Assembly: GCA_030068145.1 (NCBI GenBank)
Contig: JAPJBO010000904.1
Span: 1 to 64,000, forward strand
Reading direction: 5' to 3'
From: Diplonema papillatum
Taxonomy: Eukaryota; Euglenozoa; Diplonemea; Diplonemida; Diplonemidae
DNA: 64,000 bases
The translations under genes and the position numbers were made by a program. A model generated the notes under the pieces. The model did not search any database, was not told where the DNA came from, and was given only the letters and a program-made list of their open reading frames with translations. Shown here piece after piece: positions 5,935 to 47,682 of this stretch. Each line of letters opens with the position of its first letter. The stretch's first letter is position 1.

Positions 5935-5938
5935 TAAA

Positions 5939-18139: not shown

Positions 18140-19030
18140 ATATCTCGCACACCGTCCAGCTTAGCCAAGATGGTGCTGATGTTGTCGAGGTCTACGATGC
18201 CTATGCCCATGAAAGCATGCGAGTCGGCAGCCAGAAGCGCTGATGCCTAGCAAACTGGACGACTACGTTGACTGCACGTCTCGCACACCGTCCAGCTTAG
18301 CCAAGATGGTGCTGATGTTGTCGAGGTCTTCGATGCCTATGCCCATGAAAGCATGCGAGTTGCATGCGAGTCGGCAGCCAGAAGCGCTGATGCCTAGCAA
18401 ACTGGACGACTACGTTGACTGCATGTCCCGCACACCGTCCACACGCTGGACACCTGGCCCCCGTAGCACGGCTATCGCCGGGCCGTCGCAAGACACGTTT
18501 TGCTGCAGCGCTAGCTGCCAAACAAGATTTTCGGGGTTGAGTGAAGTTGCATTATTCGGACATGGAATGACAATGGGGTTATCATTGTCATCCGAAAAAA
18601 CAGTTTGTTGTGTGGGTGAAGAGCCTCCGGTCACTCCAGCTCGGCCAGGATGGTGTTGATGATGTCGAGATCCATGATGCCTATGCCCATGAAGGCATGC
18701 GAGTCGCATGCGAGTCGGCAACCAGAAGCGCTGATGCCTAGCAAACTGGACGACTACGTTGACTGCATGTCCCGCACACCGTCCAGCTCGGCCAAGATGG
18801 TGTTGCTGATGTCGAGATCCATGATGCCTATGCCCATGAAAGCATGCGAATCGGCAGCCAGAAGCGCTGATGCCTAGCAAACTGGACGACTGCATGTCCC
18901 GCACATCGTCCAGCTCGGCCAGGATGGTGTTGATGATGTCGAGATCCATGATGCCTATGCCTATGAAGGCATGCGAGTCGCATGCGAGTCGGCAGCCAGA
19001 AGCGTTGATGCCTAGCAAACTGGACGACTA
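18140..19030 (-). repeat. Tandem array of SAM-exon 3' ends
   Basis: About six units of 110-150 bp, each a copy of the last part of the SAM-domain exon (19498-19028) with its stop. On the minus strand each unit reads LLAADSHAFMGIGIMDLDI, TILAELDGVRDMQS and then a stop. One unit (about 18745-18631) ends instead LAELE-stop (TGA at 18633-18631), and the unit next to it carries an unrelated 200-bp piece (18440-18635). Units stay largely readable and have an AG just before ALLAADS. Confidence 0.82.
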
Positions 19031-19498
19031 CCTTGACTGCATGTCCCGCACACCGTCCAGCTCGGCCAAGATGGTATGGATGATGTCGAGATCCATGATG
19101 CCTATGCCCATGAAAGCATGCGAATCGGCAGCCAGCAGCGCCTGCCCGCCGAACCCCGCCTCTTCGCAGTACCGGTCGTACTGCGGGAAGCCCAGCGACG
19201 CCAGCCACGCGCACACGTCCGCGACGGTCCACAGCGCCACCGGTATCCCGGCCAGCTCCTCCTGCGCGTCCCGCAGCTTTTTCCGCCGGGCCGCCGTCGA
19301 GCGGATGGGCGCCGTCGTACGCGGGATCATCGCCGTGATCGGAAACCCCACTCGGCCCTTCCTGCTCCCGGGCCTGCTGCTCTGCAGGGACAGCTGCTTG
19401 CTGAGGTACTTCTGCACCTCTCCCACGGCCGCCTGGTCGAGCCAGTCGGCCCAGCTGTTGATCGACGAGTACAGGCTCATGTCGCTGTTCTTCAGCGC
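19028..19498 (-). CDS. Giant beta-helix/TIR/SAM protein, exon F (end of TIR-2, SAM domain, stop)
   Basis: Acceptor CCGCACAG|GCGCTGAAG at 19498, phase 0. The first 35 residues (SLYSSINSWADWLDQ, KYLSKQLS) fit the last helix of the TIR domain begun upstream. After a basic linker, residues 90-150 of the exon are a SAM domain: WTVADVCAWLASLGF, YDRYCEEAGFGGQALLAADS, MGIGIMDLDIIHTILAEL. SAM domains polymerise or dock with other SAM domains, and TIR plus SAM is also the pairing in SARM1 (there SAM precedes TIR). The frame ends QSR-TAG at 19028. A GT donor at 19031-19030 overlaps this end, so splicing into the repeat array is possible but not needed. Confidence 0.78.
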   Translation of the reverse strand, partial: ALKNSDMSLYSSINSWADWLDQAAVGEVQKYLSKQLSLQSSRPGSRKGRVGFPITAMIPRTTAPIRSTAARRKKLRDAQEELAGIPVALWTVADVCAWLASLGFPQYDRYCEEAGFGGQALLAADSHAFMGIGIMDLDIIHTILAELDGVRDMQSR

Positions 19499-20807
19499 CT
19501 GTGCGGAAATGAGGGTGCAACTACGTTATATTATACATACAGACGATAAGTGCTGGAGCAGAGCGCACCCGAGCCTTCAACGGAATAATTCGGGTGGGTT
19601 GAGGCGGGTCTTGTAAGACCGAAATGTGATCTTGCCTGGTTGGCCCATTGACAGGGTCAACAGGCACACTCTATCCCATTCGCTGGCCTTGGGAGGTCTT
19701 GAAGTGAGCTAGCTTCCGCGAAAGGACGGGCCTTAAGAGGCCACGAGGTGTGGCAACCTGTCTGAAGGAAAACTTGTTTGTGCGCACTGGCGGAACTCAC
19801 CTGCTTTGGTAAGTTTCATGTACGCTGCCAACTACTAATTTTTAGTACCAACAATGCATTGTTGTTTGTTAACACAAAAATACTCGAGGGACTGCCTTGT
19901 GCTCATTTCGAAGGAGGCTGGAGGGGGGGGAAACAATACAACTACAAAGTGGGTCTTTTTTTGTTGAACGCTTACGCCCGCCTCCAAACCCAGATTTACC
20001 TGTGTTTCTAGCGTTATTTGTGGATTAGAAGGTCGGTATTTTAAAGTCTCCGGTTGACCGTAGAGGCTTGAGTATGGCGGGGGATTGAGAAAAGTGAGAG
20101 GGTGCAGCTCGTTTCGTGTGGGCTACAGCACATTTACCTCCTTAGATCTTTTGCCCAGACACATGGGAGCCTCCTCAAGTATTTCCTACAAAGCAGGTGG
20201 TTATACAAAAAAGACAGGCGCTTCGTTTTGTTTGTGCGTGCCGGTTGATCGTTTTCCCACTTGTACTTACCCTGTGTGTATTCAGGTAAGGAATTCTGAT
20301 CAACCACCAACACACGCTGCCTACGTTTTTTTAGCCTGCATAACATTGAAGGGCAACCCGCAAGATTGTTGACAAAAGAAAAGACAGGCGCTTCGTTTTG
20401 TTTTTCGCTTACACCACCGTGTGTTGCTTTCTCACTGAGGACTTTGACCTGTTGTGTTTGTGTGATTTGTCGTGTCGGGGTAGACCCGCATGACCTCACG
20501 TCAACACGTGGTTCGGTAGTTACAGCACTTGGGAGGACCCTTCTGTTCTTTGTCGGGCAGCATCGTCGAGCATTTCCTTTCAAGCTGGCGCTTATGTAAA
20601 AATACTCGAGGGGCTGCCTTGTGCTTACTTCGAAGGAGGCTAGAGGGGGAGAAACAATACAACTACAAAATGGGTCTTTTTTGTTGAACGCTTACGCCCG
20701 CCACTAAACCCAGATTCACCTGTGTTTCGTGTGGGCTACAGCACACGATCTTTTGCAACTGGCAGCCTCCTCAAGTATTTCCTACAAAGCAGGTGCTTAT
20801 ACAAAAA
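19499..20807. repeat. Intron: R215, R300 and related repeat fragments
   Basis: Part of the intron between exons E and F. Contains R215 pieces at 19875-20010 and 20110-20205, an R300 copy at 20366-20600 and an R215 copy at 20598-20815. 20009-20095 belongs to a scattered family with AGTCTCCGGTTGACCG (also 36624, 51249, 53451). No gene. Confidence 0.6.
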
Positions 20808-20991
20808 CCGTACACCGCGAGAGTAGGAGAAAGTAGAAAGGGAAACTAGAGTTTTCGTTGACCGCACTACCCTGAGCCCAAATCCTGGACGTGGATTCAG
20901 GTGGCAAATTTGGCAAATGATCATGATCAGAAGGTCCTACTTGGGCGGTTCAGTTTCCTCACACATTGCATGTGGCTAAAAAAAAAAACGT
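20808..20991 (+). mobile_element. R175 SINE-like element, copy 1
   Basis: About 175 bp starting ACCGTACACCGCGAGAGTAG and ending GCATGTGGCT followed by an A run. Other copies: 58894-59080 (plus) and 50933-51105 (minus). The A-rich end and dispersed copies suggest a SINE; no target duplication or clear Pol III box was found. Confidence 0.55.
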
Positions 20992-21049
20992 GAGCAGACT
21001 GCTTTCGAATAAATTAGCAGCATACCAGAAGAACCTGGCGCGCGGTCAC

Positions 21050-21282
21050 CTGGGACTGCAAAGCCGGGGAAGAGATCGTGTGGCCGACGTCGATGACGTA
21101 CATGGAGGCACGGCGCTGCTTCGACTTGGTGTGCGCCTTCTCCAGCTCGATGATGGCTTGCTTTGACTTGAGGAACGTCTCCGAGATGAACCAGAGGGCC
21201 AGCGGGCAATCCCCAACAGCCTGCTTCACAAATTGATCGTACGCCGGGCCTCTTTTCAGGCCGTCCCACATTACAAACGAGC
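21050..21282 (-). CDS. Giant protein, exon E (core of TIR-2)
   Basis: Acceptor AAACAG|GCTCG at 21282. It needs two bases to complete a codon and exon D supplies one (ACA G|GC), so the phases fit. It encodes FVMWDGLKRGPAYDQFV, then DCPLALWFISETFLKS and ELEKA, then YVIDVG: helix B, strand C, helix C and strand D of a TIR fold. The Glu of AIIELEKA sits where TIR NADases such as SARM1 have their catalytic Glu. Donor: CCCAG|GTGACC at 21049, or CGCCAG|GTTCTT at 21034 with five more codons; both keep phase 0 into exon F. Confidence 0.68.
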
Positions 21283-21664
21283 CTGTTTCATGGAGTGGAA
21301 GTTCGCTTTATACTCCGGCAGGTCAGAGTCTCGGGGTGGGAGTTCACAATTTTACGGTTTCATTATCATTCGCGTCCGTCCTTCGTCTATTAACCCAACT
21401 CCGACCAACCGGACATATATGTCCGGTTTAATCTGGATTTTTCTGTAGGGGTGCTCAGGAGGCGCCAAAAAATTCCCAAAAATATGGAATTCACCCATTT
21501 CGAGCAAATCTTTTCATTGCCGCCCTCGAATGTCAAAAATTCGTCAGCAATGACGATTGAAACCAAGTGGCGAGATTGGGGAAACCCCCGGAAAACCGGC
21601 TTTTTCAATGCCTTGTCATCAACAGTCGAAACAATCCAGGAACTTGGGCAGTGAAAAGTACAAA

Positions 21665-22861
21665 ATGTCTGGAAGGAAGCGGGCGGCCACGGATATGGAG
21701 AGTGTGGGGTCGACAGAAGAAGAGGACAACGAGGAAGCAGAAGAGGTGGAAGAGGAAGAGGACGAGGAAGAAGAAGAGGATGAAGAAGAGGAAGAGGATG
21801 ACGATGACGACAACAACAGGTCGGGAAGGACAGTGCGCGAACAAGTGCATCATCTCGACGCCACCGCGCTTGGGCGGGTGACAGTGGTCGACTCTTGCGG
21901 GAACTGGGACAGGCAACGGTCGCGACGTGAGTTCGGCGGTATCCGGGGTGTGACACTGCAGCTGCGTGACGAGCAGAGCGGGGTGGAGTGCGGGTACATC
22001 GCACTCATGCGAGCGATGGAGGGAAGTTTTGCGATGCCATCGGCATTGAACATTCTCAGCTTCGCCCGCGAACATTTCGACGTGCGTTGCAGGAGTGTGG
22101 CACGCTTACCGGAGCTGGACACTTATCAGGTATCGAGCTTCTGCCTCCAACACGGTATCGGATTCCAGCCCAATCCGGAGACAGTGTACACAGCGCTGTA
22201 CAACTGGGCCGTGCTGAGAGGAACCGGCTCAGTCGAGCGAGGCGAAGACCGACCCCACCCGGCCAACGTCGTGTTCCTGGCCAACCCGCGGGTTCAGAGC
22301 GGTGATCTCGGCCACTTTATGAACATTTTTTTTGGCGAGCCACCAAAAGAACAGGCGCCGAAGTCCTCCGCAAAGCCTGCACCGAAGCGCCCCGGCCGGC
22401 CACCAAAAGAACAGGCGCCGAAGCCCTCCGCAAAGCCTGCACCGAAGCGCCCCGGCCGACCACGAAAAGGACCGGCACAGAAGCCCCCCGCAAACCCAGC
22501 ACCGCGAGGCCGCCCACCGAATACTGAGAGCGCTGCGGTCAAGGCAGCAGGTGCAGCGATCAAGTCCTTGTCGTGGAGCAGCAAAGTCGAGCCCAACCTC
22601 GAATTCCCTTTCAACGCCAAGAAGACCGGACCGAATCCGTCCTACGACCTTGATGAGGATTCCTCCCCCACTGACATCTTCAGATGCATGTTCACCGACC
22701 TGGTGGTCACCCAGATCATTGGGCACATGAGTGTGTATGCTGCAGGGAAAGAGGGTATCTCGTACGAAGCACCCGATATTGCGGAATTTCTTCGCTGGTG
22801 TGCTGTCACATACGCCCTTCAAGGACTTCAGAAAAGAGCTCATCCGCGGGTTACTTGCTGA
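21665..22861 (+). pseudogene. piggyBac transposase, N-terminal part (acidic region, AT-hooks, start of DDE domain)
   Basis: ATG at 21665 (MSGRKRAATD). An acidic Glu/Asp run (residues about 20-55) is followed by a domain of about 160 residues I do not recognise and then three AT-hook repeats (KRPGRPPKEQ, KRPGRPRKG, RGRPPN; nt 22339-22520, a 60-bp unit). Next comes the start of the piggyBac DDE domain (SPTDIFRCMFTDLVVTQIIG, then IAEFLRWC). There the frame shifts after an internal deletion and ends at 22861. No catalytic Asp is retained. The product could still bind DNA. Full piggyBac transposases are about 550-650 residues. Confidence 0.82.
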
Positions 22862-23231
22862 CAACCGCAGTACTGAGGACTTCAGCCCCGGAACGCGCAC
22901 ACCTCGGGCTAGCGACCACCCGTCGCGCCTGGATGGCAAGTTCCATGCCATTCTGGAAACAGACACCCGCGTTGCGTGCAAATGCCATGTTCGTTTGGTC
23001 AAGACGAAATATGTCTGCAAAACATGTGGCGTGGCTCTGTGTCCCGCTCCGTGTTTTACCCGGTTTCACACCCTCAAGAACCACCATTACTACGAGCCGG
23101 AAACTCCTGGGACCCAGCGCTTGAAGAAACGAGGCGGCCGCCCTTGCAAGCAGGGGCGCCCTCCCACACTCAAAGGAGTGCGTCTGACGTATACCGAGTC
23201 TACTGATGAAAGTGACTGCAGTGGCCAGTAG
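22810..23231 (+). pseudogene. piggyBac transposase, C-terminal Cys-rich finger (other frame)
   Basis: In the frame that ends at 23231, TPFKDFRKELIRGLL leads into RLDGKFHAIL, then CKCHVRLVKTKYVCKTCGV, then CPAPCFTRFHTLKNH. This is the CxC/CxxC/C/CF..yH finger found at the end of piggyBac transposases, where it binds transposon DNA. A basic tail with an AT-hook-like GGRPCKQGRPP follows. It overlaps the end of the N-terminal frame, so the two halves met by a deletion that also shifted the frame. Confidence 0.8.
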
Positions 23232-23652
23232 TTGCGTGAACTGCCCACCTGCCCCGTACCTCAATTTCCTGCGTCTTGCCCGTTATCTCGCCATCACTCC
23301 AACCCCCTACCCCCGGAACGCACGCAAAATGACGTCTGCCGCCTTTCTTCTTCTCTTTTGCTCAAGCCCAACCTAGGAAGGAAATCTAAACCACGCGAGA
23401 AAACAAAAGATTGTCAAGGTTGCGGTGAAACGTTGTCGACGAATTAGAGACGGTCATAAGCGAGAAGACGATGACAGACTAGTGCAACATCATGTCAAAA
23501 TTTCGCCTTCCAAGGGCGGCAATGGAAAGATATGCTTCGAAATCGCAAAATTCCAGCCCCAGAATGCCCAAAAGAGCGAAGGCACTCTATAAAAATGAAA
23601 AATAGGAAAAAGTGGAAATTAACCTGTAGGTGCTTGGTCGGAGTTGGGTTAA

Positions 23653-23985
23653 ACAAGGAGACAAGCTTAGCTTAATGTTCTCGTGCATGATTGATGCTGG
23701 CAGCAAGGCTTTTCGAAAAGAAGGTGTTGGTGGGAGAGTGGGTGTACCTAGCAGCGCCTTGTTTTGCGAGCAATGTTACGTTTGTAGTGTTCCTTCCTTC
23801 GTCTATTAAACAAGGTGGGAAAAACTTAGTTCAATGTTTAGGCAGAACACTGCCTCACATGGTTGTTGCTAGCATAAAGTCTTCTTCGAGGAAGATGATG
23901 CCTGAAAAGGGATGCAAAAAGAGAGGGGGGAAATCTTAGTTTCGTGTTCGGGGACGAAATCTTAGTGTCTAGGCAGAGCGAATAG
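23653..23985. repeat. Two copies of a dispersed intronic repeat
   Basis: 23655-23740 and 23815-23935 share CTTAGTTCAATGTTTAGGCA, then GATGCTGGCA or a variant and TCTTCGAGGAAGATG. Related copies: 8800-8890 (and its duplicate at 9116-9206), 35290-35370, 37495-37580 and 52990-53080. piggyBac inserted into the left one. Confidence 0.55.
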
Positions 23986-24339
23986 GGTACCAGGGAAGGC
24001 CTGCTACACGGGAGCCAAGCTTCACGTGTTCGGCGGTACTGCAGAGCCACGGGCCTATGTGTCAAGTGGCCACCGATTTCCCAAAGTAAAGCATCAAGGC
24101 GTGGCGCACCTTGGGGCTTGGCGCTTGCGCTGAACACAAGCTCATCGAGACGGTCAGTCACAGGGCAGAGCCCTGCGGCTGACCGTCTCGACGAGCGCGA
24201 GCGCCAAGCCCCAAGGTGCGCCACGCCTTGATGCTTTAGTTTGGGAAATCGGTAGCCACTTGACCCGTAGGCCCGTGGCTCTGCAGTACCGCCGAACACG
24301 TGAAGCTTGGCTCCCGTGTAGCAGGCTTTCCCTGGTACC
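23986..24339. repeat. Near-perfect palindrome made of two R260 SINE-like copies head to head
   Basis: Arms 23986-24166 and 24170-24339 are inverted copies with only a few mismatches, meeting at CAGGGC-AGA-GCCCTG. Each arm is the first roughly 175 bp of the R260 family, starting GGTACCAGGG. A transcript through it would fold into a hairpin of about 170 bp. It lies in the intron between exons D and E. Confidence 0.88.
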
Positions 24340-24576: not shown

Positions 24577-25351
24577 CTGTCAGCGCGGTGTTCTGCGAGA
24601 CGACCGCGCGGAGGAAGCTGCTGACGTTGGGGACCTCCGACGACCCGCAGCAGACGAACACCTGCGGCGAGACCACCGTGCCGCTGGGGCGGCGCGACTT
24701 CAACTGCACCGGGCTGTTCTGCACCGGCGACGCGTCTGCCGCAGGTCCGACGTCCATCGGCGACATCTTCGACGGCAGCTCGACACCGGATTCGAAGGCG
24801 AACGGCGACGCCGTCGTGCTCCGAAGCAGGTCGCGGATGGGCGAGGTGGGATGGGCGGAGGAACTGTCAAAGGGGCCACACGGCACGACGAGCTGCGGGA
24901 GTTCGAGCGTTCGCCCCTTCGGAGACGCGCCCGCCGTCCTTCCAAAAAATCGGCCGGGGGACCTCTCCTTCGGCTGCCGCGTGGCGGCCGACGCCGACAG
25001 CGACGGGAACGCCGCCCGCGTCATCGTCGGGCTGCCGTTGATGCCGGCGCCCAGCGGGATGTCGGTCTTCGGGGCCGGCTCGATGCTCTTCGCTTTTTCC
25101 CAGTAGGCCTTCGCGCTGGCGAGGTGGTCCGCCGAGAGCGTCGCTTTGACGACGTCCGAGTTGAAGTTCTCGCGCGCGGTCGCACCCCGCGGGACGTAGA
25201 GGAGGTCCAGCTGCGAAGAGACCTTGTGCAGCCACCCGGACTTCTGCTGCTTCAGGAACCGCAGGTCCTCGGTGACGATGATCACCCGAGGCGACCCCTT
25301 CTGCGCACGGAAGGCTACCGCGAAGGCCAGCGCATTCGCGAGTCGATCATC
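24577..25351 (-). CDS. Giant protein, exon D (end of TIR-1, linker, start of TIR-2)
   Basis: Acceptor GGAACAG|GATGAT at 25351, phase 0; donor CTGACAG|GTACACC after 24577, phase 1. Its 258 codons begin DDRLANALAFAVAF, PRVIIVTED and WLHKVSSQLDLLYVP, which suits helix C, strand D and helix D of the first TIR-like domain. A 150-residue Ser/Pro/Arg-rich linker follows. The exon ends with SPQVFVCCGSSEVPNVSSFL, strand A and helix A of the second TIR. Alone the first part could be mistaken for a PIN domain (DD, VTED), but the joined exons suit TIR better. Confidence 0.65.
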
Positions 25352-30181: not shown

Positions 30182-33055
30182 TTATTTGAATGAGGACGAT
30201 CTCAAAGCGGGCGAGGACGGTGATAATAGGCTGGTGATATCCAGCTCCATTCTTCGTTTGTTGCGCTTTCGCGCCGGCTGTCCTGCCGAAGCAGTCGCTC
30301 GAGGGGGCGATCCTGACATGGATGAGGATGAAGTCGAGGTGGCAGGGCCCGTGCTGCTGCGGAAGATCTTCGTCCTACGGCCCAGCCCCGTCGCGAACGT
30401 TACCGTCTTCTCCATGTTCAGCGACATGCCGGTCAGCGCGCAGAACTCATCGACTAAGTCCGCGCCCCGTTGCAGATCTGCCTCGGAGTGCTTCGCCAAC
30501 AAATTCGCATCGTCTGCGTACGACTGCGTCGACACGCCTGGTGCCTCGACATTTACCGCCTTCATCAACACTGACAGCAGCGCGTTGATGAGGATGACCG
30601 AGATAGGGCACCCTTGCAGAATGCCGTTCGCCACCTGAAACTCCTTTCCGACCCCGAGGGGGAGCTTGAACCGCCTGACGAGGGTGTCGTAGATGGACTT
30701 CAGCGGTTTCAGAATCCGGGAGTGGAGCCCGAGGTCCTGCATGAGGCGGAGTGCGATTTCCCGCGGGACGCGGTCAAAGCACTTCGAGAAATCCAGAGAT
30801 AGCCCGCACAGTGGCTCGCCGCTCAGCAAGGCGCGTTCGATCTCGAGCGTCATTGTAAACAACGGGTCCTCTCCCCGGTGGCCAGGTCGGAAACCGTGTT
30901 GACCCTCCTCGACCCAACTCTCCTGCCACACCGCAACATCCTTCAGACGCCGGCAGGCCCAGAGGCGGTACACGCAGGATGTCACCGTTATCGGTCGCAT
31001 GTTGAGCGGTTGCCCGTCGTCGCCCTTCGGAATCATACTCACGAGAGCTGTTCGCATTGCCTGCGGCCAGATCCCCGTTCTCTCGACCAGGTTCAACAGC
31101 GTGGCCAGGGATTCAAGGTACAGGTCGGGGAGTGCCTTCAGCTCAGCCATCCTCCAGCCGTCGATCCCGCAAGCACCCTTGACGCCTTTCTTCGTTAGCA
31201 GCGCGCGTAGCTCTGTCCCCGTGATCTCGCCTACTTCCTGAGGGTGTCCATCGATGTAGCGCTGGTACCGGCCAGCAAAAGGTGTGTAGGGCGGCTCGGG
31301 ACCGTCCTTGTAGGCGCGGAAGACCGGATCCCATGCGTCCTGAAGCACTGCGTCCATTTCCTCTGCGTTTGCCGTGGTCCGCTCACCTTCCAGCGTGGTC
31401 GCTTCCTGCCTGTGTTGCCGTCGGCACCACGCTACGACACTCCGCCTGTTTTCGTCCGCTCGCTTTGTCGCTCCGGTGAAGTATTTTGCACGTCGAGCCT
31501 CCATGCTGGCCTTTCCGATCGCTCCGTTCCTCTCCCGGACTGCCTGCAACAGACTGCTGCACTCCTGGAGACTGGGCAATTCGTCCCATGCCGTCATCGG
31601 CTTTCCGCGTAGTGCTGCGCACTCACTCGCGAGCTTCCTACAGTTCTTCCAGCAGTTCTGCATCTGACTCGGCGTCGACTGTGGTCCCCCTCGGTTCGTA
31701 AGGTGCCGGTGTAGCTGCTCTAGGCGATGGATGGTGTTGCGCAGTCGGAGTTGAACACCCGAGGCTGCTCCTGTGCCGTCACTGGAACTTCTCGCTGTCG
31801 CCCTCGCACGCGTTGGTGCCAGCAGACGACCTCGTCCTGTGAAACGCCGACGTTCTGACGTCTGAACTTGGCACAAGTCCAGCAGGTGCCTTTCCGCCGT
31901 TGCAGACCATTCTCGCCACGCCTCGTCGACGTCGCTGTTCCCCACTGCCTGGGCAAACCTCGACTGCTCTAGGAGTTGACGTGCCCGCGCTGAGTCTTCT
32001 TCCACCGTGGCCAATTGCTGTTGGAGCGGTCTGACCTGAATCGGCCGCGGCAACCGGTACCGCCAAACCGTCTGGTCGAACGCCTCGAGATCGAAAGTGG
32101 CAGTCACGAGTCGGTGTCCAGGTACGTCCACGATCGTCGTAGTGCAGCTCGAGAACGCTTGCGCCGCGACCCGATTCATCATCAGGCGGTCGATGCGCGT
32201 GCCCGGGGTGCTACAGGTGGCGAAGGTGGCGTCGGGGGCCTGCCCTGTGCTGACTTCTTGTAGTCGCGCTGCGTCGGACCACCCGTTCCGCAGAGCCTTC
32301 CGGAGTGTCGGGGATCTCGCCTCGTCGGTGTTAAGATCCCCGGCGACTATGATTGGAACGTCGCCGAGGCTGTCCGCTGCGGCGAAGAGGACCCTCTCCA
32401 ACAATGCTTCCCTGTCGTCGACTACCGACCTGTCGTTTCCTGACGGGCAGTACAGGTTGATCACGTGCACGAACGTGCTGCCCGTTCCCGTGGCGACCGC
32501 CGTGTGCAGAAAGCGGGCATCAGTGTACGCACTGCCAATCATCTGGTGCAGCGCCGTGGGAGAGAACGCCGGCACGGGCTTCTGGACCAAGGTGCAAACT
32601 CCCCCGTTCCTCGCGCTCGTCTCGGACCTGACTCCGGACGATCGACAGCTCCTCCCCATCGGTTCACTCCCCCAGTGACACTTCCAGTCTTCGAGATGCA
32701 TCTCCGCTTCCGGCCTTCTCGTCTCTAGGAGTGTCACCTCCTGACAGCAGAGGACGTCGGTACACACCCCTTTCACTGCCGGGATGTACCGCAAGAGCGA
32801 GGACACGTTGAGTGTGGCGACGCTCCAGCATCGGGGGCCGGGATTCTCTTCGATGTCCCCTCCTAGCAGCAGGTGCTTTCGGCGTGCCTCCGCAACTGAT
32901 AACTTCGTCCGTCTGACCTGCTCCGGCGGGCTTCGACAGAAGGGCGTGGGTCGGCGGTGGTATCGTCCTCCGGATCGTCTGTGTCGGCTCGTCGTGCGCG
33001 TTGTCGGTCGGGAGAACTGGCGGACCTGCCGAGTACGGCAATAGGCCCAGGGCAT
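30182..33055 (-). CDS. Element II ORF2: 2A peptide, APE endonuclease, reverse transcriptase (957 codons)
   Basis: Open from 33055 to a TAA at 30182. Residues 61-74 hold a 2A motif, LLLGGDIEENPGP, so the endonuclease-RT would be released with an N-terminal Pro. Endonuclease, about 77-330: SVATLNVSSLLRY, CCQEVTLL, VINLYCPSGN, VAGDLNTDEA and GTRIDRL. RT, about 620-870: GIDGWRMAEL, TALVSMIPK, GFRPGH, SLDFSKCFDRV, NGILQGCPIS and YADD at 846-849. All catalytic Asp and Glu residues are present. The protein ends about 95 residues after YADD in a Ser/Arg-rich tail that may be a late frameshift, so thumb and knuckle regions could be lost. Unlike element I there is no AlkB domain before 2A; only about 105 nt separate it from ORF1. 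Confidence 0.88.
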   Translation of the reverse strand: MPWAYCRTRQVRQFSRPTTRTTSRHRRSGGRYHRRPTPFCRSPPEQVRRTKLSVAEARRKHLLLGGDIEENPGPRCWSVATLNVSSLLRYIPAVKGVCTDVLCCQEVTLLETRRPEAEMHLEDWKCHWGSEPMGRSCRSSGVRSETSARNGGVCTLVQKPVPAFSPTALHQMIGSAYTDARFLHTAVATGTGSTFVHVINLYCPSGNDRSVVDDREALLERVLFAAADSLGDVPIIVAGDLNTDEARSPTLRKALRNGWSDAARLQEVSTGQAPDATFATCSTPGTRIDRLMMNRVAAQAFSSCTTTIVDVPGHRLVTATFDLEAFDQTVWRYRLPRPIQVRPLQQQLATVEEDSARARQLLEQSRFAQAVGNSDVDEAWREWSATAERHLLDLCQVQTSERRRFTGRGRLLAPTRARATARSSSDGTGAASGVQLRLRNTIHRLEQLHRHLTNRGGPQSTPSQMQNCWKNCRKLASECAALRGKPMTAWDELPSLQECSSLLQAVRERNGAIGKASMEARRAKYFTGATKRADENRRSVVAWCRRQHRQEATTLEGERTTANAEEMDAVLQDAWDPVFRAYKDGPEPPYTPFAGRYQRYIDGHPQEVGEITGTELRALLTKKGVKGACGIDGWRMAELKALPDLYLESLATLLNLVERTGIWPQAMRTALVSMIPKGDDGQPLNMRPITVTSCVYRLWACRRLKDVAVWQESWVEEGQHGFRPGHRGEDPLFTMTLEIERALLSGEPLCGLSLDFSKCFDRVPREIALRLMQDLGLHSRILKPLKSIYDTLVRRFKLPLGVGKEFQVANGILQGCPISVILINALLSVLMKAVNVEAPGVSTQSYADDANLLAKHSEADLQRGADLVDEFCALTGMSLNMEKTVTFATGLGRRTKIFRSSTGPATSTSSSSMSGSPPRATASAGQPARKRNKRRMELDITSLLSPSSPALRSSSFK

Positions 33056-33160
33056 CGATTGTCGTGGTCGTACGAGGCTCGCCGACAGGGCGCGTTCGGG
33101 TTGATGGGAGGAGGCCTCTGCCGGTGCCGCCTTCGTCGTCTCACCGTGGTGGCGTCGTAG

Positions 33161-35465: not shown

Positions 35466-35603
35466 CTGGCTGTTGGGTCCGATGAAGCACACGAACGCGG
35501 CTGCTGAAAAAACGGCGTCCTTGATTTCGCGCAAGTTGTCCGATTGGGTCAGGGTTTCCATCCTCTGTGTGAAGAAATGCCGTTCGGTCCAGGTTTCCTC
35601 TCC
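35466..35603 (-). CDS. Giant protein, exon C (middle of TIR-1)
   Basis: A 138-nt exon, 46 codons, phase 0 at both ends. Acceptor CTTGCAAG|GGAGAGG, donor AACAGCCAG|GTATGCC. It encodes ETWTERHFFTQRMETL, NLREIKDAVFSAAAFVCFIG and PNSQ: helix B and strand C of a TIR-like domain. The following intron is about 10.1 kb and contains element II. Acceptor choice is the least certain point; other AGs upstream are in the wrong phase. Confidence 0.58.
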
Positions 35604-36249: not shown

Positions 36250-36573
36250 CTCGAGACTGATAGAGGACGATGCTTCGAGTGTGCGGACGAGGGAAGCCAC
36301 CACGAACTCGGAGAGCGGCCCTGCGAAGAGGACCTTCGGAGGCGACCGCAAGGTAGACGGCACGCCGGCGTCCCCGAGGGACTTTTTCCGGAACGACGCC
36401 CACTGTGTCCGGAGCCGCGGGCTCTGCGGCTGCGGCTGCTGCTGCTGCTGCAGCTGCGGGCTTTTGTGTGCGATGGACAGGCGCGCGAGGCTGAGGAGCT
36501 TCACTTTGCTGGTGGTGCCCCTATGCTTCTGGTCGTTGTCCAGCGCGGCTGTCTTCAAGACAAGGTTCGCAGC
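36250..36573 (-). CDS. Giant protein, exon B (linker and start of TIR-1)
   Basis: Acceptor AAACACAG|GCTGCGAAC, donor CTCGAG|GTGTGTG, 108 codons, phase 0 at both ends. A Lys/Gln-rich linker with a short Gln run leads to PPKVLFAGPLSEFVVASL and VRTLEAS, which matches strand A and helix A of a TIR domain. The layout, with the exon ending after TIR helix A, is the same as in exon D, so the two TIR units probably arose by duplication. Confidence 0.62.
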
Positions 36574-37190: not shown

Positions 37191-37319
37191 TGCAACATAA
37201 GTATAGGGAAAAGTAGGGCAAAAAATCGCAGATTAATATTTTTTTTTTTTTTTGGCTTCACCCGGACTTTACCACCCTGGTCGAACTTCGCTTCGTGCCC
37301 GAACTTTTTCTTAGTACCA

Positions 37320-37450: not shown

Positions 37451-37608
37451 GCTGCCTCCAGTCTCGCCAGGCGCCGGCCTTAGCCGAGCGCACGTACTTT
37501 AGACGGAAACACTGCCTCGCATGCATGTTTGATGCTATGAAGAAGGAGATGTTGCACAACATCAACTAGAAAATCGGGGGTATAAGGAGGGGAAAAGGCG
37601 AAACAGAC

Positions 37609-40600
37609 CTTCGTGTCCTCAAGGGAGAGGTTCAGGAGCGCGATCCACGCCTCGACGTCGTGGGTGGCCTCCGAGATTTTCCCGGCGAGCCGCGCGAAGA
37701 GGTCGCCCGCGTGCTTGTGCAGGTTGCCGGCCTCCCGCTTCGCCTTCTTCATCGCTTCGAGGACCTGCTGCTGCCGCTTGCTCTCCGCGTCCCAGGCGGT
37801 GTTCCGGGTCGCGGCGGTGTGCACTCCCGCTTTGCTGCCGCCGAAGAGCGGGTGGTGGAGGGTGTGCCACGGGCCGGGGTAGCGCAAGTCGTTCCGGACG
37901 ATGTTCGCGTCGGCCTGCCCTTGGGAGAGGTCGTTCGGGGTCAGCTTCGCCTGCGAGTCGACGGATATCGCGGAGGAGAACCCGACGGGCGAAGGGTAGT
38001 ACAGGTTGCACCCGCGCATCGACAGCTTGCACGGCGGCGCAAGCTGCGCGTGGCCAGACTGCGCGACAGACGGCGAGAACCCCACGAACACCCCGCACCG
38101 CCCGTTTTCGACCACGTTCACGTACTCCAGCAGCCCGGCGGCGCCGTCGATCAGCTCGACGCCTTTCCCGTCGTTGTCGAAGACGTCGCATTTCTCGAAC
38201 AGCACGCACGGCCCGACGGCACGCCGAGCGTCTGGCTGCTCGAGGGCGAATACACTCTTCCGCTTCGCGGGGCCCAGCCGCGGGGAAAACGCGGGCGACG
38301 CGTTTGGCTTCGCGTCTTTGCGGAACCGAGACGACGGCATCCCGCTTCCAGACGCTGGGGTGAAGAGGCTCGACCCGTCGACAGGTTGTGACGGGCGGAG
38401 ACGGGGCGATCCCGCGGAGGCAGAGCGCGGACTGCCTGGATCGTGCTGCCGGAGGGACTGCTTCCTCGTGAGAGCGGACCGAAAGCTGTGGTGCGAGCCC
38501 AGCCCAAGAGAGGGCTCGCCGGCGTCGCTGCGGCGGCGCAGCGCGGTCCCGGACGGCCGCCGCCGCCCGAGCTTCTGGTTCGATGCGCGGCGCCGCAGCT
38601 TGCCGACCGTCGCCTTCGGCGCCAGCGCCGCGGGTTCCGACCCATCGACGCTGCACGTCTCGTCGACTTCGCTCTGCCGCCGCGACGAGGCCTGCATGAT
38701 CCCCGGCGCGAACGACGCTCGCCTCGAGTACATCGAACTGCCCGCCGCTTTTTCACCCCCCCCGGCCTCCTCACCCGGCTTCCCTTCTCCGGCGTACCGC
38801 GGGGGTTTACCGGGGTCGTCGGGCTTGGGGTCCTCCTGGAACGCGACGAACGAGGAGTCCGCCGGTTCGTGGGCGGCGTGCTGGGTGGCGGGCGGTTGAA
38901 GGAACTCGGTGGAACTGGCGTTGCTCGCGGCGCGGGAGCGGCCGCCGGGGGTGATGGGCGACATCGGGACGTTCGAGTCGCGCGAGTTGACCCGCGCGCT
39001 CCGCGCGGCGGGCGACGAGGGGCCGGGGAACGTGGCGCCGCCGCCGTCATCGCCGCCGTCGACGGACAGCGAAAACGACGGCTTCCGCCGCCTCTCGTCG
39101 TCATCGTCGTCGGCGGCCGCGCTCACGTCGTCACTGCCGACCCGTGCCTTCCTCGCCGGGCTCTTCGACCCCCTCACCCGCTTTCCCTTCGGCTCCAGCG
39201 AGAGCAGCAGGGGACCCCCACCCTGCTCGCCGGCCTGCGACCGAGTGCCGCCGGACCCGGGCGACACGTCGCCCGATGGCGCCGGGGTGTGGGCCTTGAG
39301 CCGCTTCGCGGCCGTCGGGACAGGCGGCGAGCGCCGCCCCATCTGCAGCGGGCTGAGCACCGCCGCCGGCGGCGCCGCGCGGGCCTCGCTCTCGGCCGGG
39401 GACAGCACCGACGGCGGGCTGCCGACGCCGGAGGCGGCGTCGCCCGACAGCCTCTTCCGGCGGTGGACCCCCGCGCGGATCGGCAGGCGGGGCGCGCTCT
39501 CGGCGGGGGACAGCAGCGCCCTGCCGCTGTCCGGCGTAGGGTCACCCCCCGGGGGCTGCTTGCTCGCGGGGGACAGCCCGAGGCTGTCTTGCGACGCGTC
39601 GTCGCGGCGGGAGCGGCCGCCGGGGGACAGCGGCAGGAGGTGGGCCTTCTTGCCGCGGGGGTCCGGGCTTCGCGCGCGCCCAAGGCGCGCCTGCGACTTG
39701 CTCGCTGGGGAGAGCAGGAAGCTGGTGCTGGATCCCGCGCTGTCGTCGTCGTCGTCTTCGACCGACGGGGAGAACGACGTCCGTTTGGGGTCGTCCATCC
39801 CCCCGAAGCAGGACTGCTTCCGGGCTTTCCCCTTTCCCCCAGCCGGCGATTCGACCCCGCTTTCGTCGAGGAACTTCCCGAAGTCGATCCCGTTGGTGAA
39901 AAGGCTGCTTCTGGTGTCGGGTTTCGGGTTCTGCGGCGACTTAAACGACTTGTCCGGCTTGGAGAGGGCGAGGCCGCTGCCGTTGAGCTTCTTGGCCTTC
40001 GCGAGCGACGCGTTCGGGTTCGCGGACGCGGCGGAGTGCATCGACTGCCGCCGGGACCCCGCGACCTTGAGGAGCGTCGACGTCGTTTTGACGAAGGTGG
40101 ACAGCCGCTTGTTCTGCGCGCCGGCGGCGCCCAGCTCATGCGGCCGCGGCTGCTTCTTCGCCGGCGCGCTGACCGGCGACTGGTGACCGCCCAGGGTGCG
40201 CCTGGTGGAGTGCCGCCGGAAGCTGGCCTCACGCACCCGAACGCCCCTCGTCGCAGCCGCGTTGTGCTCGGAAGTGCTGGTCGGGCCAGCGCGGGGCGAC
40301 CCGGCGAGATTCGACATCATCGAACCTCTCCGGGAGTTCGCCTTCGCCTCCGCCAGCTCCGCCGCCTCTTCGGCGAGTCCGGCGCTGGTCGTGCCGCCGC
40401 ACAGTCGGACGCCGACTTCGGTGTTCTTGAACACCGCGGTGTGCATCACTTTCACGCCGCCCGCCGCGCGCACGCAGAACCCCACCTTTTGCCCCGAAAC
40501 GTGCCCTTCAAGGAACACCATGGTCTTCGCCGCCTCGCCCGGCGGCTTCCCGGGGCTCGCGGCGTCGAGCAGCGCGTAGCCGCTGCCGCCGCGGGTGGAG

Positions 40601-43600
40601 CGGCGCCTGGCGTTCGCGGCGCTCGGCTTGGCCGGCGGGTTGTCGTCGGCCGACAGGCTGGAGCCGGCCTCGTCGCCGCTCGCGTCGCGGGACCCCGCGT
40701 CGGCGTCGCTTCCGCTCGCGCTCGCATCGCCGTCGCCGCCCGGTCGTTCCCCGTCGAGGAGCACGCCGCACGCGTCTTTTTCCTTCGACGACGCGCCGTT
40801 GCCGAACACGTTGTTGTACGGGCCGACCGTACCCGCCGCCCCCGGGGCCACCCGGACCCCCACCCAGTCGCTCCCCGCGATGTCGTTGTGCGCGACCACC
40901 AACGCGTGGGACGCGCCCGCCTTCAAGCGCACCCCTTCGTAGTTGAGCCCGATGACCCCATGCTCGAACGTCCCGGCGCCATCCCTTTCGAAGACGACGC
41001 CTGAGTGGCAGTCGACAACGGTGGTCCGTAGGCAGACCGTCCCGCTGCGTTCCTGGAACAGGACCCCGACGCCGCCGCAGCCGACTGTGTTCTCAGTGAA
41101 GAACAGGCACGACGCTGCGCGGCTGACGACGCCCACCTCGTTGCCGACGATGTCGTTCTCGGAGAACGCGGTGAGCACGTCGCGGCGGCCGTGCGGCTCG
41201 AGGTTCAACGGGAGCGGACAGCAGTGCGCCGCCAGCACCGCCACCTCCGGATCCAGGTCCGAGATCCTGACCCCGCAGGGCGTGTCCACGATGCGGTTCT
41301 TCGCCACCTTCCCCTCCGCCCCCGGCAGCGCGGACACCGCCGCCGCCTTGTTCGCGAAGAAGAAGTTGTCCACCACAGCGCACGCGGACGTCGACGCCAG
41401 CACGACGCCGGAAACAGTGCACTCCTGCCACAAGTTGCGCTCCACGTTCCCCTTGGCCCGATCGGACGCGAGGAGGCCGATGGCCGGCCCCGTTACCAAG
41501 TTTTCGAGCACGTCGGGCATGGTGCCTTCCCCGGTGAGGACGAACGCGATCGACCGCTCAACCGGGTTTTTGATCACGTTCGACGTGTACATGCCGCGGG
41601 CTCCCGAGTACGCCAAAATGGCGATGGGCGCCTTGTGCATGACGTTGTGCGCGATGATCGGGTTCGCGTGCGCGCACACCACGATGTGGGCCGCCGCGTT
41701 GTCGGCGAAGAAGTTCTTCTTGACCATCGTCGCGTCGGTGTCCTCGCACAGGATCCCGCCGGACAAAATGGGTGCTCGCGTGGGCTTCGGGGCGGCGAAG
41801 TACGGAAACGACGCGTCGAGGTCCAGAGGAGGGGCCGGGGCCGCTGCGAGCAGCTTTCCGTTGCCGGCAATCGCATTGTACGTGACCAGGGCGCAGCCTT
41901 GCGCGGCGTGGATCCCGTAGTGTCGGTTGTTGTTGATTACGTTTTTCAGCACAGACGGGCAAGACTTTGACCTCAGCAGCAGCCCGACTGCGTTGTCGGT
42001 CACATGGTTCCCCCTCACCTCCGGTTCGGAGCTGGACAGCACGGACACGCCGGTTTCGTGGCGCATGATGGTGTTCCGGAAAAGGCAGCCGCCCGCTTTG
42101 TTCGAGAACTTCACCCCGGTCCCGCAGTCCGAAACCAGGCACTTCTCAACCCGCGGCCGCGCCGCGGCGCCCGAGACCCCGATACCGATCCCGTGGTGGT
42201 TCACGGTGCACTCCAAAAAGAGCCCCTTGCCGCCCGCCTCGACGACGACGCCCACCTTACCCTCCTTCACCTCGCACCGGGCCAGCTTCGGGTCGCCCGC
42301 GGTGCCGACCACGACGGCGGCGCGCTCGAACTTTTGGAACACGCACTTTTCGAAGGTCCCGCCGCCGGTGGTTTCGGCGACGAGGCCGACCCCGCAGCGC
42401 ATGGCGGGCTTCTTCCCTTGGCGGCTGTCCGGGCGGACGTTGCTGGAGTCCGGGGACGACGGGCGGGACGTGTCCAGTCCGGTGTCGAGGGGGAGCGAGA
42501 GAGACGAGTCCGCGGCGTATGGAAGCTCCGCGTTGCTGAGGAGCAGAAGCAGACGCGTGGATTCGTCTTTGAGCCCGGATTCCCGCTCGCGCGACAGGAG
42601 GACGTCTGGGAGGATCGACAGCTGCTTCGCCGTCGGCGCCGCGAGCACGAACGGCTCGCCCGAAAACACGCAGTCCGCCACGTCGGGGCACGCCCCGCGG
42701 GACACGTGCATCGCCGTGTCGTTGTCGACGAAGTAGTTGGCCCGCCACTCCGGGGACGACCCCCCCCGCACGGACGAGGCCAGCAGGTTGTGGAACAAGT
42801 TGTTCTCCTCGAAAACCCCCGACGACCCGGCCCCGCACGTCTCGACGGCGATGACGCACCGCGAGAGATCGCACCCGCGGAGCGTCCCGGTGCCCTGGCT
42901 GATGGACACCGCCACTTCGTTGTAACTCCACGAGCACCGGTCGAACACCGGCTCAGCGAGGTCCCCGTCGATCTTCACGGCGACCGAGCCGGGGCCATTG
43001 TGGTGGATGAAGTTGTTCCCTTTTCCAAAAAAACCCTTCCCCTTCGCCCCCACGAACACCGCGATCCGGCTCCTCGGCGTCCCTTCGAACAAATTGTCGA
43101 AGCACTGGGGGTCGCCCCCGGACTCCACGCGCACCGCGACCTCGTTGCCTTTGAAGGCGTTGTCCTTCAGAAGCCCCCGCCCGCCCTCCGACACGACGAC
43201 GCCCACGGCGTTGTCCCGCTCCGCCGACGACGATCCGAACACGTTTTTTTCGAGCGTCGGGTTCGCTCCGTGGGATATGGCGACCGCAGTCTTCAGCGAC
43301 TCGAACGTGTTGCCCGAGAATACGCCGTCCGCGCCCTCCTCGGAGAAGGTCAGCCCGGTGGGTGCCTTCAGGACCGAGTTGCCGGTCATCGTGATGCACG
43401 CCCCTGCGGCGACCTTGACGGCGCAGCCGCGGCAGTCGGAGATCTCGTTCGCGTCGAACGACGCGCTCGCCCCGCGTTCCGCCAGCACGCCGACCTGCTC
43501 GTTGCGCACGGCGTTGAACGCGAAAGACGCGGGGGCGCGCCGCCCGACGGCGATCCCCGCGAACGCATTGCCCGACACGTCGTTCCGCACGACCACACCG

Positions 43601-46600
43601 CACCCGTCGTCCACCGCCTGCACCCCGTACCGATTCCCGGTCAGCACATTCCCCGCCACCAACACGTTCCCTCCCGAGCCCGACAGCAGCACCCCCGCGT
43701 CCCCGCAGTTCTTCATCGCGTTCCCCACAACCCTGCCGGCCCCTCTGTCCCCGCACGCAACCCCGCAACTCAGGTCCTTCAACCGCAAAAACGCCGAAAA
43801 CACCGCCAAACGGGTCCGCGCCCTTCGCTTCGACCTGTCCGGTACGCTGTCCGCCAACGGTGCTCCCCCATAGTCTTCAGCCGCTGCTGGGACGAGGGTG
43901 ACCCGCTTGTCGCCGAGGCGCTCCGGTGTCTTGTGTCTTTCGGTGTCGCTGCCCGTAGGGGGTTTGGCGGGTGGGGCGATGCCCGGCAGCTGCTTTGCCG
44001 CTGCGTTCGTGATCGCGTTGCCGACGACCATCGCGTTGCCCCCCGACTCGAAGAAGACCGCGGCCGCCAGGAACGACCCGGAAAACGCGTTGTCGTAGAA
44101 CAGCCCGCCGCTGCCCTCCGCGCTGACGACCGCCGGCCCGCACGACGAGCCGCGGAACTCGTTCCGCTCGAAGAGGAACCCGGTCACGCCGCCGCCGCAC
44201 CAAACCATCGGGGTCGGCACGCGCGCGTCGAACCCGTGGAAAAACCGGTTTTGCCGGAAAACGACGACCCCCCGCCCGCTTCCGTGCAGCCACGCACACA
44301 CGCCGCCGTACCCTCCGCACGGCAAATCCGCGGTGGTCACGTCGTCGATCACCGGGCACTCGAGTGTGTTGCGCACGATCAGCACCCCTTTAACGACCGG
44401 CTCCGAGCCCAGCCGCAATGCTGAACGGCGGATTGTGTCGGACACCTTTATCGCGGCACCCTTCCAAGCGCCCGTGAACGTGGAGCCCATGCGCAAGGCG
44501 GGAGGCACCAACGGCGTCGCCAGCGCGCTGCTCGCGTGATCCGCGGCCTGTGCGATGCAGGCCACGTATTCCTGCGGGATCCGGGCGTAGAACGCCGCCG
44601 GGACCCCCGGGATTCTGACCGACGACTCGGGCTGCCGCTGGGCGCGCGCGGAGTCGCCGGGGGACGAATCGGCGGGGGTCGACGGGTGCGGAGAGAGCTT
44701 CTTGGAGGGTGTCAGCCCGCTCGCGGTGTCGAACAGTCGGCTCGCTGGGGAGGAAGGGAGGCTGAGGTTGATGTTGGTCGGGGAGATGACGGAGGCCGCG
44801 GCGTCGGGAGGGTCGGAAGAATTGAGCAAGTCGGTCTCAGACAGTTCGGCGACGACTTCGATGTGCACCGCGTTGTGGGTCAGCACGTTCTTGGCGACCA
44901 GGCTCGCGCCGCCCGGCGTCGCGATGACGACACCCTTCAACTGGTGCTGGATCGTGTTCGCGACCACGACCGCCCGGGAATCAGCCTCCAGCCGCACCCC
45001 CCCGGCGGTGTTCTCCCGAACGGTGTTTTTCCGGAAAGTCCCGAAACCGTCGCCGATGCGGAAGCCGAACCCGCCCGCTCCGGAGACGTGGTTCTCCTCG
45101 AACAGCGGGTCGGCGCCGCGCGTGACGAGCACGTTGTCGAACGTGTTGGCCACGAAGTGGTTGCGCCGGAAGACGCCCGTGCTCTCCGAAGAGCAGTGCA
45201 CCCCCGCCCCGGACCCCTTCATGATCTTGTTCCCTTCGAACACCGGGTGCGACCCTTCCCGCACGGCCACCTGCGGCGCGTGGAGCGAGTCGCCTTCGGT
45301 GATGTGGTTGTCCAAAAACACGCCCTTCCCGTACTGCGCGACCAAAATGGACCCCCCGCCGGGTTTCGACGACTCCAACAGCCCCAGAGGCGGAAACCGA
45401 AATTCGTTCGAAGCCCTCCCGTTCGTGCCGGTCATCGACTGCGACGCAGTCCCGCAGGTTTCCCTGCTCGGACCGTTCCGGAAAAAGTAGTTTTGGTTGG
45501 AGAACACGGGGTCCCCACCGGCCCGGACGACGACCGCGTACTGGCCGTTCCAACCGCACCGGGAGATCGTGCAGGCCTCGAATCTGCCTAGCCCGCGGTG
45601 CGCGATCTCGATGCCGATCGTGTTCGAGTAGAAGTGGCACTTAAAGAACGTGGGGCGGCCCCCCGTTTCGACGAGGAGGCCCTTCGAGTTCTGCCGGATC
45701 TGGTTCGTCCGGAAGGTGCCCCGGGCCCCGTCGACCACCGCGATCGCCGGGGCCTTCACGGGGTCCTGGTGCTCCCGCACGTCGTTGCCCACGACGACCG
45801 CATTCGCGCCGGTCCCCACGAGGAGGATGCCGGGCCCGCCGCTGTTTTCGATCACGTTCTTGTAGAGGTACACGAAAACGGCGCCCGCCGGCGGGGAGAA
45901 CGGGTGGGCCGCCGCGCCCTGGCTCGCGACGACGACGCCGCCCTTCGCGTTGTCCTCGATTCGGCAGTCCTCGAACACCGGCCCGTGCTGGCAGCAGCAG
46001 TCCGAGCACGCGCAGCAGCCCATCCTCCGCTCGCTGGTCGACTCGCTCGACACGACGTTGTCCTGCTCCGCGCCGGTCCCGACCGGGAGCCCGGGTTTGC
46101 CGCCCTTCGGCAGCAGCGCCGTCCGCGACGGGTTGCGCTTCACGGCAGGCGAGTCGCCGGCCGCCGGCGCGCTCGCCGCCGCCCCCTCGCAGTCCTCGCC
46201 GAGCCACTCCGCTGTCTGGCTGGTCAGCGGCGCGCTGCCGTTGCGCGGATACGCGGGGGAAAGGTCCACGTCCGGGTTGCAACAGCAGGGGCACGGGCTG
46301 GGACTTTGCTCTTGAGTGCCCGGGAGGGAAGCCGGCGAGGCTGAAGGTGAAGCTGTGCATGCCGGCGGTTGCGCCTGCGGGCAGCAGAACGGGGTAGCCG
46401 TGTTCGCGGGGTTCGACACGACAACGCCGTACACCCCGCAGGAGGATATCACGCAACTCGACCGGAAGCACGGCGCAGCGGACCGAATGGCGACACCGCT
46501 GCCGTGCTGGCACGTGATCGTCGTCCGTTCGAACAGCGGCCGGGCACCGCACGTCACCTCGACGGCCGCCACGTTCTCCAGCTGCTGCCACGACACTTGG

Positions 46601-47682
46601 TGTCGTGACGCATGCACGCCCGCCCCCTTCCCGCCCCACTGCCGCGCGGGGTCCTTCCCTTCCTCCCCCGGGGCCGCCGCGGACTTCTTGCCCCCCCCGG
46701 AAACGGACGCGGAAAATTGGAGCCTCGCCGGCTTCTCGTCGACGACCGCGCGGCGGGCCGACGAGTCGTCGATTTTGCACGAAAAAAACTTCGGCGCGAC
46801 GTGGAACTTTTTAAATGCCGTTCGGCGAGGCGGGGGAGGGGAATCGGCGGCAGCGCCGCGAGGGGACACCAGGGCCGGGGCGCGCGTGGGTTTGGGGGTG
46901 GGGGAGAGGACGCCGAAGGCGTCGAAGACGCCGGATTGGCGGCGGGTCTCGAAGTCCCGGGAGTTGCGGGAGAGAAGCGCGCTCCGCTCGCCGTCGGTCC
47001 CGCCGCTGTGCACGTCGCCTTGGATGTACAGCGTGTGCAGCGGGGACGCGTTGATGGTGCAGCCGGTGAATTCCACCTGGCCGGTGGAGGATATCACAAC
47101 GGATGATTCCCCGTTCCTGCGGATGACGCACGCATCGACCAACGCAGAGCCAGCTCCCCTCACGGCCACGCCGCACTGCGGCGCGTTGAGGATCGTGCAC
47201 TTGCGGAGGTGGGCCTTCCCCGGGGTGTGCTCCTGCCCCTGGACGACAACTCCGAAAATGAAGCAGTCGTTGAACGACGCCTCACCTTCGACCACCGCGA
47301 CCGCCGTTCCGAACGTGCTCTTGTTTTTGATCGTCAGCCCGCGCACGGAGCAGCAGCCGGTCTTCGCTTTGCAAATCACCGTGGCATCCGCTCGGTGCTC
47401 CACTATAACGTCGCCCCCGTCACCATGGAGCTCCACCCTCCTATTCATGGTGATCTGCTCGAAGTATATACCCGGGTGCACAATGATGCGGTCGCCTTCG
47501 GCGACGTAGTCCAGCGCGCGTTGGATGGATTCGAAGCACCCCACATTCTTCCCCGCCTTCACTTGGAACTCGCGCGTGCGCCGGTGCCCCCTGGCATCCC
47601 TCTGGTACGCGGACGAGATCCACGTGAACAAGTGGCCCTCCGGGGTCGTCTCCTGCCCAAGACTGCTCTCGGACAGGGACAT
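37609..47682 (-). CDS. Giant protein, exon A: 3,358-residue right-handed parallel beta-helix
   Basis: One uninterrupted GC-rich 10,074-nt frame from ATG 47682 to donor GACACGAAG|GTCTGT at 37608, phase 0. Residues 40-110 are a pectate-lyase-like opening (CFESIQRALDYVAEGDRIIV, HPGIYFEQITM, VELHGDGG). Then dozens of 22-24 residue coils run to about 2310, with Asn/Gly turns of the type VVxNxIxxNxxxGVxV (PbH1/NosD/FBXO11-like repeats), broken by Ser/Pro loops (about 235-365, 470-545). Residues 2440-3145 are a low-complexity Ser/Pro/Arg linker, 3150-3260 a final set of coils, and 3280-3358 a charged helical segment. Such helices bind glycans or proteins or act as scaffolds; there is no signal peptide or clear membrane segment, so it is probably cytosolic. 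Possible SL acceptors lie at 47760 and 47741. Confidence 0.9.

Follow-up and report, generated by a model that had tools for sequence, protein, structure and literature searches.

A predicted six-exon gene of Diplonema papillatum that combines a giant beta-helix with TIR-like and SAM domains

Introduction

TIR and SAM domains are signaling domains known chiefly from proteins of immunity and cell death. Proteins with TIR domains pair an output domain with varied recognition modules (ARM repeats, LRRs and others); in the plant TIR-NB-LRR receptors, it is the repeat domain that serves recognition. Right-handed beta-helix proteins of eukaryotes include FBXO11 and SHCBP1. Liprins are scaffold proteins that are not known to possess TIR domains or a beta-helix. 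Among the closest described systems, SARM1 is presented as an ARM-SAM-SAM-TIR protein in which the SAM domains are used for multimerization together with the TIR NADase (PMC8494770). In plant TIRs, mutation of the conserved Glu leads to the loss of NADase activity and signaling, and fusion to the SAM domains of SARM1 results in cell death (PMC8813719). Here we analyze a locus of the diplonemid Diplonema papillatum that probably encodes, in a single gene, a beta-helix of unusual size followed by two TIR-like domains and a SAM domain.

Gene structure and genomic context

The predicted gene is located on the minus strand of contig JAPJBO010000904.1 (C904 of the assembly), in a window of 64 kb that denotes the whole stretch of DNA analyzed here. 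It is composed of six exons (A to F) that run from position 47682 to 19028 and are 10074, 324, 138, 775, 233 and 471 nt long. Exon A (37609..47682, residues 1-3358) encodes a pectin-lyase-like N-cap, the beta-helix, a low-complexity insert, the last coils and the start of a helical segment. The rest of this segment, a Ser/Gln/Arg-rich stretch and the start of the first TIR-like domain (TIR1) belong to exon B (36250..36573, residues 3359-3466), and the middle of TIR1 to exon C (35466..35603, residues 3467-3512). Exon D (24577..25351, residues 3513-3770) covers the end of TIR1 (to approximately residue 3600), a linker and the first strand of the second TIR-like domain (TIR2); exon E (21050..21282, residues 3771-3848) covers the core of TIR2 from the BB-loop to alpha-C; and exon F (19028..19498, residues 3849-4004) encodes the end of TIR2, the SAM domain (residues ~3932-3999) and the stop. 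The exon coordinates were all proposed by a sequence-only reading of the window, along with canonical borders, matching phases and approximately 4,004 residues, and all were reproduced when the exons were joined: the spliced frame has 4,004 codons with a single stop, at its end, and all five introns are of the GT-AG type, with matching phases 0,0,0,1,0. The sequence ACAG is present at four of the five acceptors, compared with 6.1% of the AG dinucleotides on the same strand (227 of 3,741; binomial probability 6e-5, uncorrected for the choice of the motif). An in-frame TGA immediately precedes the start ATG of exon A, and in the paralogues on contigs C53 and C88, a Met is found shortly upstream of the same N-cap.

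For the other five exons, all six frames were scored with a codon table whose training set was limited to exon A. The expected frame was the best of the six in all five of these exons, with a score close to zero in exon C (-0.016 bits per codon); GC3 ranges from 0.72 to 0.90 across the six exons, all of which are open in the expected frame. The block of codon signal in exon A ends at 37606, 3 nt past the donor (exon border 37609). In exon D, the block (25342-24581) comes within 4-9 nt of both exon ends, in exon B (36549-36283) it is 24-33 nt short of them, and in exon E (21214-21035) it is 68 nt short at the upstream end; the block in exon F spans 19501-19043, compared with exon borders 19498-19028, and exon C contains no block. 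Because such blocks appear on the opposite strand and within introns as well (mostly in the LINE region 34415-30264), they represent support for the exons rather than proof. Exon B lacks Met codons, and in-frame stops limit its frame to 9 further codons upstream and 10 downstream; therefore, no separate gene can start in it, and if exon B is coding, it must be internal. The proposal of one gene that joins a beta-helix to a TIR-like tail and a SAM domain is thus backed by the exon joins, the Pfam matches described below, the codon signal and the closed exon B. On this evidence from the DNA, the six exons probably do form a gene, one with an unusual order of domains.

The intron between exons C and D is 10 kb long and contains a LINE ORF on the same strand as the gene (30182..33160, minus strand), with endonuclease and reverse transcriptase matches (Exo_endo_phos, 42 bits; RVT_1, 86 bits); given these matches, this ORF was rejected as an additional exon. 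Long introns of Diplonema are described as often holding transposable elements (PMC10161547). Beyond the stop, repeat comparison revealed that the end of the SAM-coding sequence and the 3' region recur as degenerate tandem copies (18132..19027, minus strand; region 18132-19160). For Diplonema, dozens of gene models are reported in which a terminal segment is repeated beside the gene (PMC10161547); the repeats described here are similar but not identical to these, because the published examples involve 5' regions and the ends of first exons.

Elsewhere in the window, an ORF of an SLC4-type bicarbonate transporter (6861-8759, minus strand; HCO3_cotransp, 320 bits) overlaps, at its 5' end, a tandem repeat of 316 nt (8581-9239). 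Another ORF (2005-3597, minus strand) matches 2OG-Fe(II) oxygenases (2OG-FeII_Oxy_2, 47 bits), with a weak endonuclease match behind it, and AT-rich satellite arrays with a unit of 42-43 bp are located towards the end of the window (56598-58131, 61157-62320 and 63369-63865).

The beta-helix part

Exon A matches the Pfam family Beta_helix in 13 stretches, with a score of 326.6 bits (cut-off 25.9), as well as NosD (191.9 bits) and the repeat model TIGR03804 of NCBIfam. On the basis of Beta_helix, TIGR03804 and an N-cap profile, the main beta-helix, with its loops, was assigned to residues ~36-2440 (40363..47577, minus strand). A coil profile that includes this protein's own coils picked 31 stretches in the protein and none in one shuffled sequence; the last of these stretches ends at residue 2286, and a single pattern match follows at 2412. 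A hydropathy period of 22-23 residues is apparent at residues 1761-2300 and less clear elsewhere. When aligned with four paralogues, the N-cap matched pectinesterase chains (E 4e-5), and a beta-helix stretch alone retrieved no PDB chain by sequence. The composition of residues 2301-3150 indicates an insert rich in Ser, Ala, Gly, Pro and Arg (residues ~2441-3155; 38218..40362, minus strand), which is followed by what are probably the last beta-helix coils (residues ~3156-3285; 37828..38217, minus strand). The latter were recognized from the sequence pattern and alignment to the paralogue ends and were not picked by the coil profile. Accordingly, the initial notion of a giant beta-helix of at least approximately 2,300 residues stands on the Pfam matches, with the amendment that the low-complexity insert breaks the helix, which apparently continues for a few more coils thereafter.

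An AlphaFold model of residues 1755-2300 built without relatives had a mean pLDDT of 32.5 and was not used. By crude hydropathy, the N-terminus is free of strongly hydrophobic stretches; as judged from its sequence, the protein is probably cytosolic.

The SAM and TIR-like domains

The C-terminal SAM domain was originally placed at residues ~3938-4000. Exon F alone scores above the cut-offs for SAM_2 (30.7 bits; cut-off 20.5) and SAM_1 (29.2 bits; cut-off 23), and so does the joined tail (25.6 bits for each). The best match among solved structures is the liprin 3tad, with a whole-sequence E-value of 3.6e-6 over its three SAM domains and 0.11 for the best single one; in the same search of PDB sequences, SARM1 was matched at E 0.56.

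For the TIR-like domains, the evidence is uneven. The joined tail of 650 residues matches TIR_2 with 31.3 bits (cut-off 28), a score collected from two stretches, and TIR (PF01582) with only 15.1 bits, compared with a cut-off of 21.3. Taken alone, TIR1 (TIR_2, 18.9 bits, E 0.0022) and TIR2 (TIR_2, 19.2 bits; TIR, 18.7 bits) each reach E-values of about 0.002, below the cut-offs, and exon E alone has a TIR_2 match of 18.7 bits (E 0.0025). No TIR family in Pfam matches exon C alone or exon D alone, so the evidence for TIR1 depends on splicing, as these exons match TIR_2 only when joined. Exon C alone matches DUF6757 (E 0.006, below the cut-off of that family), and TIR1 has weak rival matches to DUF6757 (E 0.015) and DUF6586 (E 0.022). 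As for controls, the reversed sequences of TIR1 and TIR2 matched no Pfam family, and a scramble made by hand matched one DUF at E 0.05.

Direct comparison with plant TIRs further separates the two domains. With a profile built from three plant TIRs, of which two are almost the same, TIR2 ranks first with 7.7 bits, compared with 5.9 bits for the best of 1,000 shuffled sequences (500 of TIR1 and 500 of TIR2), and TIR1 is absent from the approximately 60 best matches listed. With hhalign, TIR2 aligns with plant TIRs over 49 ungapped columns at 24% identity and E 0.001, with a probability of only 21.5% (the profiles are shallow); TIR1 yields nothing in this comparison. TIR2 contains LKRG in the place of the BB-loop, and its Glu3816 (codon at 21146..21148, minus strand) aligns with the conserved Glu of plant TIR NADases, a position occupied by Glu in the RUN1 chain 6o0w and by Ala in the RUN1 chain 7s2z. 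TIR1 has Leu at this place in an alignment of TIR1 and TIR2 that was made by hand and is weak (6 identities over 49 residues); MAFFT misaligned the two. The Trp-Cys pair found shortly before the Glu in the three plant TIRs is missing from TIR2, which has SKQA where these have SRWC or STWC; this may mean that conservation does not extend to the pocket. Searches of PDB sequences returned no match for TIR1 and, for TIR2, four unrelated matches at E 0.4 or worse with no TIR chain among them; the PADLOC models contained no family matching the tail, TIR1 or TIR2 at E 1, and NCBIfam had nothing for the tail. Of the two TIR-like domains claimed at the outset, TIR2 is thus backed by both Pfam and the plant TIR comparisons, whereas TIR1 is much weaker and has one marginal Pfam match only.

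Relatives in the genome and in protein databases

Searches of the assembly (271 Mb in 2,910 contigs) with the N-cap identified 13 places at E 0.01, i.e., the gene itself and 12 others; given that those on C3 and C2056 score equally and may be one locus, there are at least 11 relatives. In three of these paralogues (on C53, C88 and C271), the downstream DNA was read, and the beta-helix, the last coils and a helical segment are followed by a Ser/Pro-rich tail. The helical segment that crosses the junction of exons A and B resembles these paralogue ends at 21-26% identity, a weak likeness. No TIR or SAM domain was detected by Pfam in the scanned DNA of these three paralogues (six ORFs, two per contig). 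Phmmer searches with TIR1, TIR2 and SAM against six-frame translations of six paralogue regions had best E-values of 4.8, 5.0 and 0.32, respectively, a weak null result because single-sequence queries would miss diverged TIRs. With nothing found in the scanned paralogue regions, the idea that TIR-SAM recurs as a module within the beta-helix family is not supported.

The tail is near single copy in the genome. As a query, it produced 12 matches, namely its five own exons, five repeat copies of its 3' end, a short fragment on C2708 and a weak SAM match on C400 (E 0.72). The C2708 fragment lies among dispersed repeats (region 5000-6400) and corresponds to exon D over approximately 130 nt, with 89-95% identity. 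A whole-genome search with the TIR_2 family gave no candidates, which is a weak negative because the gene's own exon E was missed too. A match of the plant TIR query on C411 (E 0.39) was discarded, as the sequence there appears repetitive and visual inspection revealed no TIR pattern. Among 5.8 billion proteins, none matched the tail (query residues 80-650) at E 1 among the best 7,996 candidates scored.

SAM domains are common in this genome (58 SAM_2 matches at E up to 1), and Beta_helix has at least 93 matches at E up to 0.001 (150 of the 167 candidates scored). By comparing the lists by reading, we found that SAM_2 and the listed Beta_helix matches share five contigs (C64, C67, C85, C266 and C904); among the listed matches, the two families come closer than approximately 58 kb only on C904. 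Given that the tail is near single copy and the beta-helix has relatives, an ordinary SAM domain and a diverged TIR pair would have been gained by one member of the family or lost from its relatives. Independently of this gene, one Beta_helix match on C64 (403317-403787) is enclosed by a frame that stays open for 14,039 codons and may be a single-exon gene of very large size. On C1486, the same Beta_helix match recurs every ~2.67 kb over part of the contig, in a tandem array of large repeats, and a single match on C577 scores equal to those of the array.

Proposed working and alternative explanations

The most likely reading, to which we assign a probability of about 0.42, is that of a beta-helix platform in the cytosol whose TIR output is assembled by SAM, NAD+ cleavage by TIR2 being its bold part. 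The giant right-handed beta-helix would act as a binding platform that is engaged by a ligand or partner, and the helical segment and two low-complexity linkers would connect it to the degenerate TIR1, the Glu-bearing TIR2 and the terminal SAM. The SAM domain, perhaps together with TIR1, would bring copies of the protein together, and the clustered TIR2 domains would signal, possibly by cleaving NAD+. Assembly driven by the SAM domain is favored because fusions of plant TIRs with SARM1 SAM domains trigger cell death in the reported constructs (PMC8813719). As first suggested for this locus, it can reasonably be inferred that the solenoid senses a ligand and, by way of SAM, drives the assembly of the TIR domains; the protein may have a role in defense or cell death. 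That the protein is Diplonema's own receptor of the SARM1 or TNL kind, in which a beta-helix sensor, assembly through a pseudo-TIR and SAM, and an NAD+-cleaving TIR2 would lead to regulated cell death or defense, appears rather unlikely; we know of no protein of this kind in the lineage.

Nearly as likely as a SAM-assembled TIR output is a structural scaffold, in which the beta-helix and SAM would bind partners and the TIR-like domains would be non-catalytic assembly modules, like those of animal TIR adaptors, with neither NAD+ cleavage nor an immune role. Several observations are compatible with a scaffold: the 12 other places with beta-helix relatives (the three examined showed neither TIR nor SAM), the absence of the Glu from TIR1, the departure of TIR2 from plant TIRs beside the Glu, and the proximity of the SAM domain to liprins rather than to SARM1. 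Retention of both the Glu and LKRG in TIR2 argues to the contrary. Division of the locus into a beta-helix gene ending near 37480 and an adjacent TIR-SAM gene comprising exons B-F or C-F would agree with the paralogue ends and with the lack of a codon-signal block in exon C. It would also agree with the donor of exon A, GTCTGT, which differs from the usual GTRAGT (a general consensus that may not be that of this organism). Such a division is nevertheless improbable, given that the codon signal stops 3 nt from this donor, that exon B, without Met and closed on both sides, makes a separate gene unlikely, and that a start in exon C, where the first Met is the 15th codon, removes the front of TIR1. 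Less probable still is that the tail is an unexpressed relic, decaying within a genome that is rich in repeats. The degenerate SAM-end copies after the stop, the LINE in the intron, the exon D fragment on C2708 and the near single-copy state of the tail would fit decay, but the frames of all six exons are open with GC3 values of 0.72-0.90, and Diplonema genes are reported to have repeated ends and to carry transposable elements in their long introns (PMC10161547).

If the platform with a SAM-assembled TIR output is the true reading, this would be a multidomain TIR-SAM protein from a lineage that is distant from both animals and plants. A beta-helix of approximately 2,000 residues as the recognition module of a TIR protein is, within a limited search of the literature, an apparently new pairing. 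Direct questions follow: does a TIR domain so far from those of plants and animals cleave NAD+, and what is the ligand of the beta-helix?

Comparison with known systems

With the pectin-lyase-like right-handed beta-helix proteins (Pfam Beta_helix, NosD), the Diplonema protein shares the N-cap and the coils; it differs from them in size, in showing no evident secretion signal by crude hydropathy, and in the TIR-TIR-SAM tail. Among solved structures, liprins have the SAM domains closest in sequence to that of the Diplonema protein but contain three of them each, compared with one here. Like SARM1, the predicted protein contains SAM and TIR domains behind a repeat-built regulatory part; this part is a beta-helix instead of ARM repeats, with no ARM family matched in exon A at E 1, and one SAM domain follows the two TIR-like domains, whereas in SARM1, tandem SAM domains precede the TIR. 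The parallel with SARM1 drawn in the sequence-only reading therefore holds in a functional sense only, given the reversed order, the single SAM and the lack of an ARM match. With the plant TIR-NB-LRR receptors (RUN1, RPV1 and ROQ1), the common features are a TIR domain with a BB-loop and the conserved Glu, along with a repeat domain that would serve recognition; unlike in these receptors, there is no match to NB-ARC or LRR, the TIR-like domains are near the C-terminus, and the likeness detected by hhalign is confined to the 49 aligned columns. Thus, the protein resembles SARM1 and the plant receptors in its working parts and is a member of neither group.
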